From contig JAHXIV010000017.1 of NCBI GenBank assembly GCA_025655455.1, positions 58,665 through 122,664 on the forward strand: a stretch of DNA of 64,000 nt. The letters are read 5' to 3'. The translations under genes and the position numbers were made by a program. A model generated the notes under the pieces. That model was given only the letters and a program-made list of their open reading frames with translations, was not told where the DNA came from and made no database searches. The stretch's first letter is position 1. Every line of letters begins with the position of its first letter. The stretch is from a gamma proteobacterium symbiont of Taylorina sp. Lineage in GTDB: Bacteria; Pseudomonadota; Gammaproteobacteria; GRL18. This document shows, in pieces, positions 1 to 6,906 of this stretch.

Positions 1-563
1 TTAACCGCTTCAACAGATAAACCCACTCCAATAGCACCAATGTATTTTCCAGCATAATCATACACACGATGATTAATAAAAATAGTTAGAGAGGTTTTAT
101 TGGCAGTGTCAATATCAACATTCACCTCATAATCCTGCTGCAACTTCTGCACACGAAAATACCATTTATCCTGTTGTTCAATCTGGTTAACTTTTTTTAA
201 AACACCACTGGAATGATAATATTTACGAGTCTTCTCCGACACAAAGAAACTGGTTATTGTGCCATAGTGTACTTGAATCTCTTTTAAATAACGTACTATT
301 GCCCCTTCATCCTGCTCTCCATCCAGAACCCAGTCCCGAACAAAGGTATCTCGTGCCATAATTGAAGAAATAAATATCGGTCTCAATAAATCCTGTTGTA
401 TTTCAGAATAGATATTATCACTGGTCAATGGCAAGGTGTTCTTTTCAACCTGACTGGTAATTGAATCATGTGCCACAAAGTAACTAATGTAACTGGTCGA
501 TAAAAAACCAACCAGCAGCATTGTTGACAATAAAAGGACAAAACGCAGTTTTCTATTCCACAT
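1..563 (-). CDS. Membrane sensor protein with periplasmic Cache-type domain, 3' part outside window
   Basis: The reading frame is open from an ATG at 563 to the window edge, giving about 187 residues of the N-terminus. Residues 8-28 form a hydrophobic membrane anchor. The rest has the character of an extracytoplasmic dCache ligand-binding domain: the stretch containing FVRDWVLDGEQDE, the WYFRV motif and the YDYAGKYIGAIGVGL strand-turn-strand near the cut are typical of Cache domains in diguanylate cyclases and chemoreceptors. The output domain (GGDEF, kinase or methyl-accepting) lies beyond position 1 and cannot be seen. It is separated by about 44 nt from the end of the amidotransferase gene upstream on the same strand, so co-transcription is possible. 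The Cache assignment is from sequence character only. Confidence 0.75.
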   Translation of the reverse strand, partial: MWNRKLRFVLLLSTMLLVGFLSTSYISYFVAHDSITSQVEKNTLPLTSDNIYSEIQQDLLRPIFISSIMARDTFVRDWVLDGEQDEGAIVRYLKEIQVHYGTITSFFVSEKTRKYYHSSGVLKKVNQIEQQDKWYFRVQKLQQDYEVNVDIDTANKTSLTIFINHRVYDYAGKYIGAIGVGLSVEAV

Positions 564-607: not shown

Positions 608-1345
608 TTATATACCATAGCAATCAGCAAATCGTTTCAATATTTTTTGTGCATGAGGTGTTTTCTTCCGATTAACAACCTCAATCAGATAATCTGCTTC
701 ATGAGGTGGGAAATAACCATGATGCTTATAGGTATTAATTCTCATTGTAAACCCTTCACCATCACCTTCCGGATGAAATTGTGTCGCATAGACGTTTTTT
801 CCAATACGAAACATCTGTACCGGGCAGACAGCACTGGTCATTAATAAAACAGCTCCATCAGGAGTCGTATCACACGCTTCTTTATGTCCCAGTAATACAG
901 ATATTTGATCTGGAAAACCAGACAACAACTTGTCATTCTTCCCTTCTTCAGTGAGATTCAAAGTAACACAGCTCACCGACTCTGCATATTTTGTAGAAAT
1001 AGAGACACCCAGATAAGATCCTAATAAAGCATTTCCGGAGCATGCCCCCAGAAAAGGGAAATCATTTTTTACAATAGTATCAAATAGCTGAGTAAAATCC
1101 TGCTCAATTTTTTTCTGTATAGACGACTTATCTTCATCTGGAGTACTGATATCAAATGGGCTGCCACCAATTATTACAGCGCAATAATTATCTAACGACA
1201 GATGTTGCGGAATGCCCCGCTTCTCAATACGCAGACGATGAACCATTTTTTCCTCAAGCCCGCTATATTTCAGGATGGCTGCAAATTCATTATTTGAGGT
1301 ATTATCCTCCGGACGCAATTGCAAAATAAGAAAAGGCTTTGGCAT
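608..1345 (-). CDS. Class I glutamine amidotransferase-like protein
   Basis: A 245-residue protein of the GMP-synthase-like class I glutamine amidotransferase fold, which hydrolyses glutamine to supply ammonia. The nucleophile elbow LGACSGNALLG supplies the catalytic Cys (residue 102), and QFHPEGD supplies His191 and Glu193, so the triad is complete. The IIGGSPF oxyanion-region motif is present. A TTG at 1363 would extend the frame by six residues; I prefer the ATG at 1345, which begins MPKPFLILQLRP and starts 1 nt after the stop of the M14-family gene. It is the third gene of a tight operon with an aspartoacylase-like hydrolase and a GCS2-type ligase. No synthase domain is attached, so the ammonia acceptor is unknown; it may instead hydrolyse a gamma-glutamyl substrate. 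Confidence 0.85.
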   Translation of the reverse strand: MPKPFLILQLRPEDNTSNNEFAAILKYSGLEEKMVHRLRIEKRGIPQHLSLDNYCAVIIGGSPFDISTPDEDKSSIQKKIEQDFTQLFDTIVKNDFPFLGACSGNALLGSYLGVSISTKYAESVSCVTLNLTEEGKNDKLLSGFPDQISVLLGHKEACDTTPDGAVLLMTSAVCPVQMFRIGKNVYATQFHPEGDGEGFTMRINTYKHHGYFPPHEADYLIEVVNRKKTPHAQKILKRFADCYGI

Positions 1346-1346
1346 T

Positions 1347-2366
1347 TTAAGATATATTTTCAACGGCTGGTAAGGTCATTTTCTCCATCAGATAACATAA
1401 ACAATCCTGACGAATAATTTCCTCTTTTGTTGTCAACATGGATGGCATAACCTGAATCTGCGTTCTGATTTCACCATTATCATAACTAAAATAACGTTGT
1501 GAAACATTTTTACCCTGTTCATCGACTGCCTGTAGATAAATGGGCTTATGCGGATCGATCAGAGCCAGGCACTCACCAGATCTCATCACTGTAAAATTCA
1601 ACCTGTCCACATTACAATCAAAACTAATATCAGCAGACTGATTTGAGTCAAAACTAATGCTGAATTGCTCAGGTACCTTCACAATCGCCATCGTGTGGTA
1701 CAAGTCAAAATCGGCTTTTTTAAGAGCCTGTTGACTAAATTCCCCCATCACCATGATCTTTTCTATGTAGCTTTTTACATGTTCTACACCATGAGGCTGA
1801 TCCGGTTGTCCACACTCAATGGTTACCGCCGGGCAAAGTGATGAAAAAGCCATTGATTGAACACTATCGGGCTGAGTAAAATAAACCACTGTGCGGCTAA
1901 ATAAATGTGCCAGTTGAAAGAAATCATGTTGTTTTTGATTAATACAGGCATAATGTGGATTTTTACCGGTATTATTATGAATATCAATACTGGCAAATAT
2001 CTGCTTCTGTTCCATTTCCAGTAGAATTTTATTCATCATTCTCCCCTCTTCAGAAGGATGATTACGCCATACTCGATTATAGTCTGGTTGACCATCAAGC
2101 ACTCGCTTACATTTTTCTGCCGCAGACACATTAGCAATAAATATCGACAGTGAACGTGCTAATGGTTTATTTTTCTGTGCAACAAGGTAAGATTTTAATG
2201 CTTCCCAGCCGGTTGTTTCATTACCATGTAATAAGACAGAAATAAATAAAGGATTTGGCTGAACACCCGTTAAATGAATCAAGGTTGGTCCTTGCAGATG
2301 CTGACATAATTCATGTGCTTTTTTCTGCAGTAGTTTTTCAGGTAAAGAAGATAATATCGTTAACAT
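1347..2366 (-). CDS. Succinylglutamate desuccinylase/aspartoacylase-family (M14) zinc hydrolase
   Basis: A 339-residue zinc-dependent amide hydrolase of the AstE/ASPA branch of the M14 carboxypeptidase superfamily. Zinc ligands are visible as HGNE (His47, Glu50) and as the His in SIDIHNNTG (His130); TIECGQ (Glu184) is the likely catalytic region. The family removes acyl groups from N-acyl amino acids or trims peptides. The substrate cannot be read from sequence. It is the middle gene of an operon: the GCS2-like ligase gene ends 9 nt upstream and the amidotransferase begins 1 nt downstream. The pairing of an amide-forming ligase with an amide-cleaving hydrolase suggests turnover of one gamma-glutamyl-type or N-acyl compound. 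AstE itself is less likely because no arginine-succinyltransferase genes are nearby. Confidence 0.85.
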   Translation of the reverse strand: MLTILSSLPEKLLQKKAHELCQHLQGPTLIHLTGVQPNPLFISVLLHGNETTGWEALKSYLVAQKNKPLARSLSIFIANVSAAEKCKRVLDGQPDYNRVWRNHPSEEGRMMNKILLEMEQKQIFASIDIHNNTGKNPHYACINQKQHDFFQLAHLFSRTVVYFTQPDSVQSMAFSSLCPAVTIECGQPDQPHGVEHVKSYIEKIMVMGEFSQQALKKADFDLYHTMAIVKVPEQFSISFDSNQSADISFDCNVDRLNFTVMRSGECLALIDPHKPIYLQAVDEQGKNVSQRYFSYDNGEIRTQIQVMPSMLTTKEEIIRQDCLCYLMEKMTLPAVENIS

Positions 2367-2375
2367 TTTTATTCC

Positions 2376-3863
2376 TCAGACTTCCCACTCATGTACTGCC
2401 CGCCCGCTTTGCTGCATTTGTAAATAAGCTCTGGTTAATGCCTGCATATCTTTACCATAATTCTCAACGTAACGACGCTGCCATACAGCGCCATTTTGTC
2501 CACTGCTAATACGCTGTTCAATAATACCAAGATAATAAGCAATATCCTGTCTGGCAATACCCAATTGATTTAAGCCATCTTTGGCCATAGGCAGCAGGTA
2601 ATCCATCAGCAAAGCCTTCATGGGCAGATGTCTACCCGACAACCAGCTGGTTTTGCCATGTAAACCCTGTTTGGCTGCCCGATAAAAATTTTCTTTAGCC
2701 TGCACAAAAGGCAATTGCAGCTCTGCAATTTCATATTGGTTGGCCAGAGCAGTGACTGCACCAATAAAAAAGGCGGCATTGGCAACGCTGTCAATGATTG
2801 TTGGACCTGACGGCATGACTCGATGTTCTAACCTTACATGATAGTCCCTACCTCGTTCAGGATCTTCACGATAGGCAATCAAAGGACGATTCCAACGCCA
2901 TATGGTACCATTATGCAGGCTCAGATGAGCCAGATCCTCCACTGCAGTATTAAAGATCTCCGGCAGTAATACTGGAAAATGCTCATTATTTTCCTGAAAA
3001 CACTCCAGTAAGGATTGTTTTGCATAACCGGAACCAAAACTGACTCGTTTGACAGGACCAAACATTGCGCCGTCAAACCCACCAACAGAAACTGCCTGTT
3101 CAAATACTGGAATACGGGTTTCACACCATAAATCTTTAGCAAACAAAAAAGGGGAGTTAGCTGTTAGTGCCACAATGGGTGCTGATAAAAGAATGGCGGC
3201 ATTATAGTAACGTACTGATTGTGAAAATGGCATTTGTAAATGTAGCTGGAAGGAAGTCGCTGCCGATTCCAGCATGACATCCTGATGCACACTTTTTAAT
3301 GTTTCACTGCCTTGAATATCCAACTCAATTGCCCGCCCTTTACGACTTCTGAGTACTTGTTCATTAAGAGCTTTGTAACGCGTTAAATGGGACATATTCG
3401 CCAGTTGCAAATGCTGCTCCTGCAAGCTGGGCAGGGAACCCACCATAATCTGGCAACAGCCCAGTTCATTGGCTACCGTTTCACACTCAGACCAGAGCCG
3501 GGTCAATTCCTGTTCCATATTATGCAGCACTGATCCACTTAAAACAAAAACTGAACTATTCAGCTCAATATTAAATTGTGCCAGCTCTGTGGTGACCTGG
3601 GGAAAAATAGATGAGTGTTTGAGACGTTGCAGAAATTCATTATTAATACAGGCCGGCTCAGCATTTTGATCAATAAAACAGGTTTCCAGCTCAAAACCAA
3701 TACTTGGATGTGTATCACATTTGTGATAATGATTTTGCTGACTGATTTTTTGAGTTTCCTGCTCAAACCAGTGACTTAACCATTGCAGCTCAGCATCCAT
3801 TTTGTCACGAAAACATGAAAAATCATTTTTTTTAAAATGGCGATGTGTAATTTCCTGACCCAT
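2376..3863 (-). CDS. GCS2-family carboxylate-amine ligase (glutamate-cysteine ligase-like)
   Basis: About 495 residues related to the GCS2/YbdK group of ATP-dependent carboxylate-amine ligases. Visible hallmarks are the acidic GFELETCF motif, ELNSS, TANSPFLFAKDLWCETRIPVFEQ, the WRWNRPL segment and LEHRVMPSGPTIIDSVANAAFF. The frame stays open to a GTG at 3938, with ATGs at 3917 and 3902. I chose the ATG at 3863 because MGQEITHRHF followed by a charged helix is, from memory, the usual start of this family; the ribosome-binding evidence is weak for every candidate. It is the first gene of a three-gene operon with an M14 hydrolase and a class I amidotransferase. Ligation of an amine to a glutamate-type carboxylate is likely; authentic glutathione synthesis is not shown, as no GshB neighbour exists. 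Confidence 0.8.
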   Translation of the reverse strand: MGQEITHRHFKKNDFSCFRDKMDAELQWLSHWFEQETQKISQQNHYHKCDTHPSIGFELETCFIDQNAEPACINNEFLQRLKHSSIFPQVTTELAQFNIELNSSVFVLSGSVLHNMEQELTRLWSECETVANELGCCQIMVGSLPSLQEQHLQLANMSHLTRYKALNEQVLRSRKGRAIELDIQGSETLKSVHQDVMLESAATSFQLHLQMPFSQSVRYYNAAILLSAPIVALTANSPFLFAKDLWCETRIPVFEQAVSVGGFDGAMFGPVKRVSFGSGYAKQSLLECFQENNEHFPVLLPEIFNTAVEDLAHLSLHNGTIWRWNRPLIAYREDPERGRDYHVRLEHRVMPSGPTIIDSVANAAFFIGAVTALANQYEIAELQLPFVQAKENFYRAAKQGLHGKTSWLSGRHLPMKALLMDYLLPMAKDGLNQLGIARQDIAYYLGIIEQRISSGQNGAVWQRRYVENYGKDMQALTRAYLQMQQSGRAVHEWEV

Positions 3864-4230
3864 AATAATTGATATATCCAATAAATTATTGATATGTTTC
3901 ATGTCTGAGTATAGCATAAGAGAATTAAGTTTCTTCACATTATTGCATGCTGTTAGTCAGCCTTAGCAAGCAAAAGAGACATTCATGAATGACGCTGTCA
4001 ATTCGTACTTCGGAGTGTCGTGTAATGTTTCAGTGAAGGGAAAATAGAGTCTTTAGGCATACAACTAATGATACGTACTATAAAAATACCTTATAATATG
4101 ATTTTATTGGATTGTCTGATATGTTTATGATGCTCATTGTTAAATTTATTCAGGTAATGCTAATACCAAAAATAAAGATATTCCTGTCATTACAATAACT
4201 ACTAATACAATGTAGAGAGATGAAACTGAA
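3864..4230. other. Divergent intergenic region without recognised genes
   Basis: This is the promoter region between the leftward GCS2 operon and the rightward PAS-GGDEF-EAL gene. It is A+T-rich. A short dyad-like stretch near 4002-4020 (TACTTCGGAGTGTCGTG) is visible, but I cannot assign an operator. A 64-codon frame on the minus strand (4150-4344) overlaps the next gene and has no coding character. Confidence 0.4.
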
Positions 4231-6906
4231 ATGACTAAAATTATCAATCGTCAATTTATAATCCTTCTCACACTTATACTTCTTGTGGGAATTGCATCTA
4301 TTGTAGTGGTGGCTCATATAACCGATAAGAACATGCGTTTGCAACTTCTTAAGCAGGCCAGAATAACAGCAAGTACTATTAATATTGAGCGAATTAATTC
4401 CTTATCCGCTTCAAAAAAAGATATAAATCAGCCTGATTATGAGCGTATTAAATCACAACTTGCACAGGTACGAAAAACCAATAAACAGTTTCAGTTTATC
4501 TATCTGATGGGACAACACCTGGATAAACGTATTTTTTTCTTTGTTGACTCCCAGCCAGTAGACTCTAAAGACTATGCTCCTCCTGGATTAATTTATGAAG
4601 AGGTTTCAGACTCTTACCTGCATATTTTTGATACAAAAAAAGAAGCTGTTGTAGGACCTATAACCGATCGATGGGGAACATTAGTTACAGCACTTATCCC
4701 TATTAAAAATCCTGTAACTGGAGACTTCATTGCTATTCTTGGTATGGATATCACTGCAAACAACTGGAATAAAAAAATTCTCTTCTACGGTACGATACCA
4801 TTTGTATTAATGTTACTGATTATAATTTCAACTCTATTAATAGCATTAAAAAGACAAGTGGCTCAGGCACACTTTGAGAGTGAAGAAAAACATAGATTAT
4901 TTTTTGAAAATTCTCCCATAGGGATTATTCATTATGATAATAATGGCACAATTACGGATGTTAATGATGCAATAATATCTATCTTAGGCTCTTCTCGTAA
5001 TAAGCTGATTGGATTTAATCTGGATGAAATACAAAATAAGGTTTTGGCAAATGAAGTTTCTAAATCCCTTGATGGCATAACAGGGCATTATGAAGGGGAA
5101 TACAAGTCAATTACAGGAAACAAAACATCAATCATAAAGGTTGATTTAGTGCCTATCCTTCATAATGGCAAAGTCAGTGCTTGTATTGGAATTGCTGAAG
5201 ATATTACTAAACGTAAAAAAACTGAACAAAAATTAGCAGAGACTAATTATAATCTTCAGCAGTATCTTGATGTAATAGATGATATTAATATTGGACTTTT
5301 TGTTGTTGATGAGAATTTTTATATTCGTTATATGAATAATTCAATGATAGAGTGGTTTGGCGACCACACAGGTAAAATCTGTTACTCTTCTGTAGCAAAA
5401 CTTGAACAACCTTGTTCATATTGCAAGCTCAGAGAAGTCATTATTGAAAATAAAAAGGTAATTTATGAGCCAGAAACACCAGATGGGAAATTTTTTGAAA
5501 TAGTTGCAACTTCTATTAAAAACTCAGATGGAGCAACATGTAAGATGGAGGTGATTAGAAATGTAACAGATAAAAAAAATGCCCAAAAATATCTGCTTGA
5601 ACAAAAAGAAAAATTAGAGCATCAAGCCCATCATGATGCACTGACTGAGCTTCCAAATCGTCTTTTATTTAATGACAGGCTAGTTCAGAGTATTGAAAAA
5701 TCCAAACGTAATAATAGCAAAATGGCTTTACTCTTTATTGATCTTGATCACTTTAAAGAAATTAATGATTCAATGGGGCATAATATAGGGGATGAGGTTC
5801 TTAAAATTATTACACAACGTCTTAATAAAATCATACGAAAAGAAGATACCCTTGCCCGCTTGGGTGGTGATGAGTTTACGGTTATCGTAGAAGATTTAAA
5901 ACAAGGGCAAGATGCATCATTATTAGCACAAAAAATTATTGAATTTCTTGCAGAACCCATTAAAATTGAAAATAACTCTCTCTATGTTTCCAGTAGTATA
6001 GGAATTAGCCTTTACCCAAGTGATGGGGATTGCTCTCAAAACCTTTTAAAATATGCTGATTCCGCTATGTATAAGGCAAAAGATGAGGGCAGAAATAACT
6101 TTCAGTTTTACAGTGCTGAAATGACAGAACTTGCTATTGAACGGGTTGTTATGGAATCCAGCTTTAGATCTGCACTAATAAATCAAGAGTTTATTGTCTA
6201 TTATCAGCCACAGATAAATGCTGAAGAAAGCAAACTGATCGGGTTGGAAGCTCTGGTCAGATGGCAGCATTCTACAATGGGGCTTGTATCTCCTGCCAAG
6301 TTTATTCCTTTGGCTGAATCCACGGGACTCATCATTGAACTTGATCAATTTGTCATGAAAACTGCCATGAAGCAGGTTGTAAAATGGCATGCTCAAGGCT
6401 TAAATCCCGGGAAATTAGCCCTCAATCTTGCTATAAAACAGCTTCAGCAGAAAGACTTTATTAATATTCTTAAAAATATGATAACAGAGACTCAATGTAA
6501 GCCAGAGTGGCTTGAACTTGAGGTTACAGAAGGTCAGATTATGACAAATCCAGAAGCTGCTGTAAAAATCCTGAACTTGATTAGTGACATAGGTATAGAC
6601 TTAGCAGTTGATGATTTTGGAACAGGCTACTCTTCTCTTTCCTACCTTAAAAAGTTGCCCATCAATAAGTTGAAAATTGATCAATCATTTGTACGAGAAC
6701 TACCAGATGATGAAGAGGATGTTGCCATTGCAAAAGCAGTTATTACTTTAGCAAAAAATTTGAATCTTAGAATTATTGCAGAAGGTGTTGAAACAACGGA
6801 GCAAAAAGAGTTTTTGGTACAAAATGGATGCACGAATATTCAGGGATATCTTTATAGTAGACCGATACCAGCTAATGAGATGGAAGAGTATCTGAAGAAA
6901 ATATAG
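4231..6906 (+). CDS. Cache-PAS-PAS-GGDEF-EAL bifunctional c-di-GMP protein
   Basis: An 891-residue inner-membrane protein that probably makes and/or breaks cyclic di-GMP. In order: TM1 (about 4-28), periplasmic Cache-like sensor (about 30-180), TM2 (about 185-210), PAS1 (about 220-335), PAS2 (about 345-460), GGDEF (about 475-630) and EAL (about 640-885). The cyclase signature GGDEF (near 543) is intact. The phosphodiesterase domain keeps EAL (near 672) and DDFGTGYSSL (near 793), so both activities are possible. PAS2 carries three clustered Cys residues (EQPCSYCKL near 392-396 and a nearby KICYSS), which could bind metal or sense redox. The gene is monocistronic and converges on ybeY. Confidence 0.93.
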   Translation: MTKIINRQFIILLTLILLVGIASIVVVAHITDKNMRLQLLKQARITASTINIERINSLSASKKDINQPDYERIKSQLAQVRKTNKQFQFIYLMGQHLDKRIFFFVDSQPVDSKDYAPPGLIYEEVSDSYLHIFDTKKEAVVGPITDRWGTLVTALIPIKNPVTGDFIAILGMDITANNWNKKILFYGTIPFVLMLLIIISTLLIALKRQVAQAHFESEEKHRLFFENSPIGIIHYDNNGTITDVNDAIISILGSSRNKLIGFNLDEIQNKVLANEVSKSLDGITGHYEGEYKSITGNKTSIIKVDLVPILHNGKVSACIGIAEDITKRKKTEQKLAETNYNLQQYLDVIDDINIGLFVVDENFYIRYMNNSMIEWFGDHTGKICYSSVAKLEQPCSYCKLREVIIENKKVIYEPETPDGKFFEIVATSIKNSDGATCKMEVIRNVTDKKNAQKYLLEQKEKLEHQAHHDALTELPNRLLFNDRLVQSIEKSKRNNSKMALLFIDLDHFKEINDSMGHNIGDEVLKIITQRLNKIIRKEDTLARLGGDEFTVIVEDLKQGQDASLLAQKIIEFLAEPIKIENNSLYVSSSIGISLYPSDGDCSQNLLKYADSAMYKAKDEGRNNFQFYSAEMTELAIERVVMESSFRSALINQEFIVYYQPQINAEESKLIGLEALVRWQHSTMGLVSPAKFIPLAESTGLIIELDQFVMKTAMKQVVKWHAQGLNPGKLALNLAIKQLQQKDFINILKNMITETQCKPEWLELEVTEGQIMTNPEAAVKILNLISDIGIDLAVDDFGTGYSSLSYLKKLPINKLKIDQSFVRELPDDEEDVAIAKAVITLAKNLNLRIIAEGVETTEQKEFLVQNGCTNIQGYLYSRPIPANEMEEYLKKI

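Follow-up and report, generated by a model that had tools for sequence, protein, structure and literature searches.

We analyzed a three-gene operon in a 64,000-nucleotide stretch of contig JAHXIV010000017.1 (the whole of this stretch is hereafter the window) from a gammaproteobacterial symbiont of Taylorina sp. (assembly GCA_025655455.1), and here describe the conserved two-gene unit within it—a putative adenosine triphosphate (ATP)-dependent carboxylate-amine ligase with the GCS2 fold and a putative M14 zinc hydrolase. All three genes lie on the reverse strand. The ligase comes first (positions 2376–3863, 495 residues), followed by the M14 hydrolase, which is of the AstE/AspA type (1347–2366, 339 residues), and by a stand-alone class I glutamine-amidotransferase-like enzyme, hereafter GATase (608–1345, 245 residues), with intergenic gaps of 9 nt and then 1 nt. 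For the ligase, the longest open reading frame (ORF) begins with GTG at 3938, yet its relatives begin MGxEI, placing the start at the ATG at 3863; the GATase starts with ATG at 1345. An earlier note on this DNA had given the genes these three labels and had described the two gaps and intact active sites, all of which were confirmed by ORFs, family scans, and motifs. The sister genome (G001) has the identical gene order, with gaps of 20 nt and 9 nt. This retention of order and tight spacing, together with the co-occurrence of ligase and M14 hydrolase in 125 of 369 genomes sampled across the class, argues that the arrangement is more than chance.

The ligase belongs to the GCS2 carboxylate-amine ligase superfamily by motif, fold, and a Pfam match (PF04107) of 21.4 bits, barely over the cut-off of 21. 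Its GhExE motif reads G56-F-E58-L-E60, with G56, E58, and E60 invariant across 68 homologues, and its AlphaFold model (predicted local distance difference test, or pLDDT, of 95) is nearest in fold to YbdK (1tt4; Z score 36.2 over 346 residues, root-mean-square deviation, or rmsd, 2.5), with plant glutamate-cysteine ligase also matching well (Z 31.9, 382 residues, rmsd 2.9). It is not YbdK proper, scoring only 21.2 bits against a cut-off of 176.4 for TIGR02050 and 22.8 against 425 for NF010040, and it likewise falls below the cut-off for EgtA (12.5 vs 370.8 bits). No NCBIfam model passed for either the ligase or the M14 hydrolase of the window, and sequence searches of the Protein Data Bank (PDB), both single-sequence and profile, recovered no relative of the ligase. 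When whole genomes were scanned with the Pfam GCS2 model, the borderline score left the ligase undetected in the window genome itself (0 of 1); this model is thus uninformative about absence of the ligase from other genomes.

The second enzyme matches AstE_AspA_cat (PF24827) at 43.7 bits (cut-off 25) and has the features of that family—the HxxE...H zinc site, the Asn-Arg pair, and the catalytic Glu. The corresponding residues (H47, E50, R88, N97, R98, H130, and E184) are invariant across 63 homologues. In M14 enzymes, the Asn-Arg pair binds a free carboxylate adjacent to the cleaved amide. The AlphaFold model (pLDDT 96.4) is closest to succinylglutamate desuccinylase (AstE; Z 21.6, 273 residues, rmsd 3.8), followed by aminoacylase 3 and aspartoacylase (about Z 19.5, 259 residues, rmsd 3.2–3.3), CphZ (Z 17.2, 268 residues, rmsd 4.2), and the murein tripeptide carboxypeptidase Csd4 (Z 16.6, 180 residues, rmsd 2.5). 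Scores fell far below the equivalog cut-offs for AstE (TIGR03242; 13 vs 305.65 bits) and aspartoacylase (PRK02259; 28.6 vs 180 bits), and PDB searches found no relative by single sequence and weak relatives only by profile. Each of the two enzymes represents a new subfamily of a known kind, and neither is categorically new.

The conserved unit at this locus is the ligase–M14 pair, not the trio. Among 57 related genomes, 26 encode the ligase, and the M14 gene was present in 22 of the 25 ligase loci fetched from this set. Across a broader set of named loci, comprising the best 80 of 591 confirmed ligase matches in genome contigs, the M14 gene lies near the ligase in 76. In the class-wide sample of 369 genomes, from whose counts the very short ligase fragments in G102 and G386 were dropped, 125 genomes encode both genes, 7 the ligase only, 4 the M14 hydrolase only, and 233 neither. 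The ligase is therefore found in 132 of these genomes, about a third, yet neither it nor its partner reaches a specific NCBIfam family. Carriers include nitrifiers, methanotrophs, sulfur oxidisers, and animal symbionts. The association extends beyond the class: among 249 genomes sampled across the phylum there were 12 strong ligase matches, 7 from outside the class, and the M14 gene adjoins the ligase in all 11 loci fetched, even at the lowest identities, of about 30% and 25%.

Adjacency within the pair is close. In 111 of the 125 genomes with both genes, the M14 gene is directly downstream of the ligase on the same strand, no more than 300 nt away; in another 5 it lies 0.9 to 2.5 kb beyond, and the remaining 9 place it on a different contig or strand. 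In five of these last genomes (G153, G306, G313, G353, and G367) the ligase gene is split and its C-terminal piece is beside the M14 gene, such that the two are truly apart in four genomes only (G028, G042, G087, and G261)—by 1.65 Mb in G042, a complete single-contig genome. At the other extreme, ligase and M14 hydrolase are fused into single ORFs without a stop, of 814 residues (L040, genome G032) and 844 residues (L154, genome G294), in two genomes of one genus. We also observed in G386 a 194-residue ORF (C26:2244-2804) in which the ligase start (residues 1–31) is joined to the M14 end (201–333); this may be a deletion remnant of a fusion, as its family (f10) has the fused form.

The earlier note had proposed that the three genes together make and break a gamma-glutamyl or N-acyl compound, perhaps a small thiol or osmolyte, and had remarked that no standard pathway uses these enzymes together. 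The second statement agrees with our literature searches, which looked for the trio, the ligase–M14 pair, a link between MurU and the ligase, and one between RimK and aspartoacylase, and found no account of such a pathway, although Iyer et al. 2009, on amidoligases, was not covered. Of the first, what survives is a conserved, undescribed ligase–M14 unit; the GATase is not part of it. The GATase itself is well assigned, passing Pfam GATase (PF00117; 45.6 bits, cut-off 22.8) and belonging to NCBIfam NF005743 (PRK07567; 299.1 vs 264 bits), with an intact Cys-His-Glu triad (C102, H191, and E193). It was present, however, in only 1 of the 25 relatives' loci, that of the sister genome, and in none of the 80 named loci, and we rejected the trio as a conserved unit; for the GATase, this is the outcome that the earlier note had named as refuting its proposal. 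In the class sample, its family exceeds the cut-off in 13 genomes, 9 of which also have the ligase, and only in the window genome do the two genes adjoin. The GATase is a lineage-specific third gene, adjoining the pair only in the window species and its sister.

That all three window genes form one dedicated pathway would accord with the tight spacing in both of these genomes, with the enrichment of the ligase among GATase-family genomes (9 of 13, against 132 of 369 overall), and with a distant genome (G374) in which the GATase lies 1.4 kb downstream of the ligase with one gene between; set against its absence from nearly all ligase loci, we consider such a pathway unlikely. G374 (L163) has no strong M14 match to accompany its ligase and this class I amidotransferase-like hydrolase, and in G204 (L158), which also has no strong M14 match, a divergent ligase has a class II amidotransferase as its neighbor (63.8 bits to Pfam GATase_4). 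These two cases suggest that other amidases may be able to fill the place of the M14 hydrolase; against this stand G091, G130, and G362, where the ligase has no evident substitute close by. Downstream of the divergent ligase of G204 we also noted genes resembling a cyclase and a flavin adenine dinucleotide (FAD)-dependent monooxygenase, named from sequence impression.

One candidate function for the ligase follows from its fold, which resembles plant and yeast glutamate-cysteine ligases, and from the GhExE motif: the enzyme could supply gamma-glutamylcysteine on the way to glutathione or another small thiol of that kind. The earlier note had likewise entertained a small thiol. In a set of 61 hand-picked genomes (31 with the ligase, selected from the 132 for completeness, and 30 without), dedicated enzymes for glutathione are retained wherever the ligase occurs. 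Specifically, GshB was over its cut-off in 31 of 31 ligase genomes, and GshA was present either as PF08886 (16 of 31, one split in two) or as PF04262 (the other 15 of 15), the window genome included. We accordingly rejected the ligase as the glutathione ligase. A glutathione route would also leave the paired M14 hydrolase unexplained, and the EgtA score given above lies far below its cut-off; taken together, these results make a small thiol of the glutathione kind very improbable.

A different indication comes from the gene upstream. MurU is N-acetylmuramate-1-phosphate uridylyltransferase, an enzyme of cell-wall sugar recycling, and its gene is the commonest upstream neighbor of the pair, standing directly before the ligase in 45 of the 80 named loci (45 of 75 with more than 700 nt upstream) and upstream in at least 51 of the 132 ligase genomes of the class sample, where all MurU counts are lower bounds. 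Two examples scored 314 and 319 bits against NF045761 (cut-off 250), and their AmgK-like neighbors scored 304 and 282 bits, below the NCBIfam AmgK cut-off of 550. Among the 40 of 45 MurU loci with enough sequence, AmgK precedes MurU in 20 and other genes, many of them rho-like, do so in the other 20, from which it appears that MurU often remains with the pair after separation from AmgK. In two genomes with an M14 gene and no ligase match (G116 and G236; L164 and L165), MurU immediately precedes the M14 gene. In a tree built from 96 ligases—a quick tree with some long branches—murU linkage required 10 changes, compared with a mean of 30.7 in shuffles, and the window ligase fell in a strongly supported set of 6 rows, 5 of which are murU-linked. 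In the window genome itself, murU and an AmgK-like gene are on another contig, so that the pair is not part of an amgK-murU operon there. This murU has as its neighbor the phosphoribulokinase-like gene found after the pair in relatives of the genus, indicating that the pair has moved away from there; in the window species the murU linkage has been lost.

Given its position behind murU, the pair might handle cell-wall-derived glutamyl peptides, for example at the gamma-D-Glu–meso-diaminopimelate (mDAP) bond of murein, or a compound linked to uridine diphosphate N-acetylmuramic acid (UDP-MurNAc), beside AmgK and MurU. The frequency of the linkage, its persistence where AmgK has been parted from MurU or the ligase is missing, its few changes on the tree, and the match of the M14 fold to Csd4 all speak for such a role; the separate contig in the window genome, the sub-threshold AmgK-like neighbors, and the ligase genomes and phylum-wide loci without MurU speak against it. 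So does the presence of Mpl, over its cut-off in 31 of 31 ligase genomes of the hand-picked set. We regard a cell-wall role as rather unlikely on balance, and it does not exclude the other explanations. The ligase as a substitute for Mpl was rejected, Mpl being present in those 31 genomes and in 29 of the 30 without the ligase.

Our favored interpretation, to which we give roughly even odds (a probability of about 0.5), is that the ligase and M14 hydrolase form a make-and-break module for a gamma-glutamyl-type (isopeptide-type) amide of an amino acid or peptide. In its favor count the co-occurrence, adjacency, and fusion of the two genes, their invariant active-site residues, their nearest folds (the match to CphZ among them), and the other amidotransferase-like hydrolases near the ligase in G374 and G204. 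We infer what reaction each enzyme catalyzes from its family and active site, and propose, conditionally, both that they act on one and the same bond and what their substrate would be. In this scheme, the ligase would spend ATP on activating the carboxylate of a side chain (most likely the gamma-carboxylate of glutamate, free or as a glutamyl residue) and would couple it to an amino acid or short peptide through the amine of the latter; the M14 hydrolase would then hydrolyze the amide beside the free alpha-carboxylate of the product, giving back both halves. In the window species and its sister, the class I amidotransferase-like hydrolase may have been added as a second gamma-glutamyl amidase. 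We favor a gamma-glutamyl-type bond because the carboxylate-binding Asn-Arg pair of the M14 hydrolase would suit it and the expected ligase product fits. A further reason is that enzymes annotated like the window M14 hydrolase are reported to be isoaspartyl dipeptidases (PMC10206079).

Several observations weigh against this interpretation. The GCS2 match of the ligase, besides barely passing, spans only about one third of the family model. Three genomes (G091, G130, and G362) carry the ligase without a strong M14 match and with no obvious replacement hydrolase nearby, two others (G333 and G375) have incomplete ligase matches without a strong M14 match, and four (G116, G236, G346, and G386, the last with a fragment only) have the M14 gene without the ligase. 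A strong MurU match is missing from about 13 of the 132 ligase genomes, and MurU is not seen near the pair in any of the 11 phylum-wide loci. Finally, the pairing and the fusions fit a sequential pathway as well as they fit opposing reactions. Along such a route, the M14 hydrolase would strip an N-acyl block (acetyl or succinyl) and the ligase would use the freed amino acid, or the block would be removed after ligation. The closest M14 folds—succinylglutamate desuccinylase, aminoacylase 3, and aspartoacylase—speak for such a route. Against it, the recurrent neighbors, most of whose clusters were judged by eye, included no conspicuous gene for an acyltransferase or another pathway enzyme; we consider the sequential route possible, if rather unlikely.

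Were the make-and-break module and the murU linkage to be combined, MurU, the ligase, and the M14 hydrolase could constitute a branch of peptidoglycan recycling that has gone unrecognised in many Gammaproteobacteria. There, the ligase would build, and the M14 hydrolase trim, a gamma-glutamyl linkage on a murein peptide being salvaged or on a UDP-MurNAc-linked precursor. In some lineages, the window's included, the pair would have become separated from murU and gained a second amidase. We offer this combined scenario as speculation and think it improbable as a whole. A co-inherited, sometimes fused ligase and hydrolase nonetheless pose a testable metabolite question, and the murU linkage indicates where to look.

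Other genes recur beside the pair more rarely than MurU, including lipB/lipA-like, rho, YcgN-like (10 of 80 loci), and glycosyltransferase-like genes (8 of 80 loci), all named here by impression from their sequences. The glycosyltransferase-like protein, of about 360 residues, follows the M14 gene in L054, L056, L071, L082, L093, L096, and L115 and has only a sub-threshold Pfam match. By the same kind of impression, the M14 gene either overlaps a pyruvate-dehydrogenase-E1-like gene or stands just ahead of it in L178 and L180, which belong to one family outside the class, and genes like those of the MEMO/AMMECR1 cluster lie upstream of a divergent ligase–M14 pair in L042 and L187. In the window, a dCache sensor gene starts 44 nt after the GATase on the same strand and is followed by an ORF with a stretch that looks diguanylate-cyclase-like, with undetermined bases between the two ORFs (3–563, reverse strand, and on past the window edge; together G000:C5:57772-59227); both may be co-transcribed with the operon. 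A divergent gene upstream of the ligase (4231–6906, forward strand) encodes a PAS-GGDEF-EAL protein, such that the operon is flanked on both sides by cyclic-di-GMP-type proteins.

Among known systems comparable to the pair, the glutathionylspermidine synthetase/amidase of E. coli joins a ligase to the amidase that opposes it within a single polypeptide. The fusions in G032 and G294 likewise unite a ligase with a predicted amidase, and their domains may also act on one bond, though the genes are separate in the window, and the folds differ—ATP-grasp and a CHAP amidase there, GCS2 and M14 here. YbdK (GCS2; PDB 1r8g and 1tt4) shares the ligase fold (Z about 36) and the GhExE active-site motif, but has about 370 residues rather than 495, and the ligase scores far under the YbdK cut-offs; to our knowledge, a neighboring M14 hydrolase, usual for the ligase here, is no recorded feature of YbdK. 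AstE, aspartoacylase, and aminoacylase 3 have the same M14 fold and the same zinc, Asn-Arg, and Glu active-site residues as the hydrolase, which nevertheless shares only 13–19% identity with the top-listed solved members and falls below the equivalog cut-offs. CphZ, a cyanophycin dipeptide hydrolase with the AstE/AspA-type M14 fold, offers a precedent for hydrolysis of side-chain-linked dipeptides (PMC10206079), but enzymes of its type are located with cyanophycin genes, whereas the partner here is a GCS2-fold ligase. According to PMC2588565, a different GCS2-sized carboxylate-amine ligase of the glutamine synthetase superfamily adjoins a glutamine-amidotransferase-like peptidase in proteobacteria; compared by that description only, it resembles our ligase with its GATase-like neighbor, and differs in that the conserved partner here is the M14 hydrolase and the GATase an addition. 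Lastly, in six genomes (G154, G033, G084, G107, G146, and G150) we observed, by coordinates, distant paralogues of the M14 hydrolase beside RimK-like ATP-grasp ligases, an order of amide ligase and then AstE/AspA-like M14 gene that parallels the pair described here, with an unrelated ligase fold in place of GCS2.

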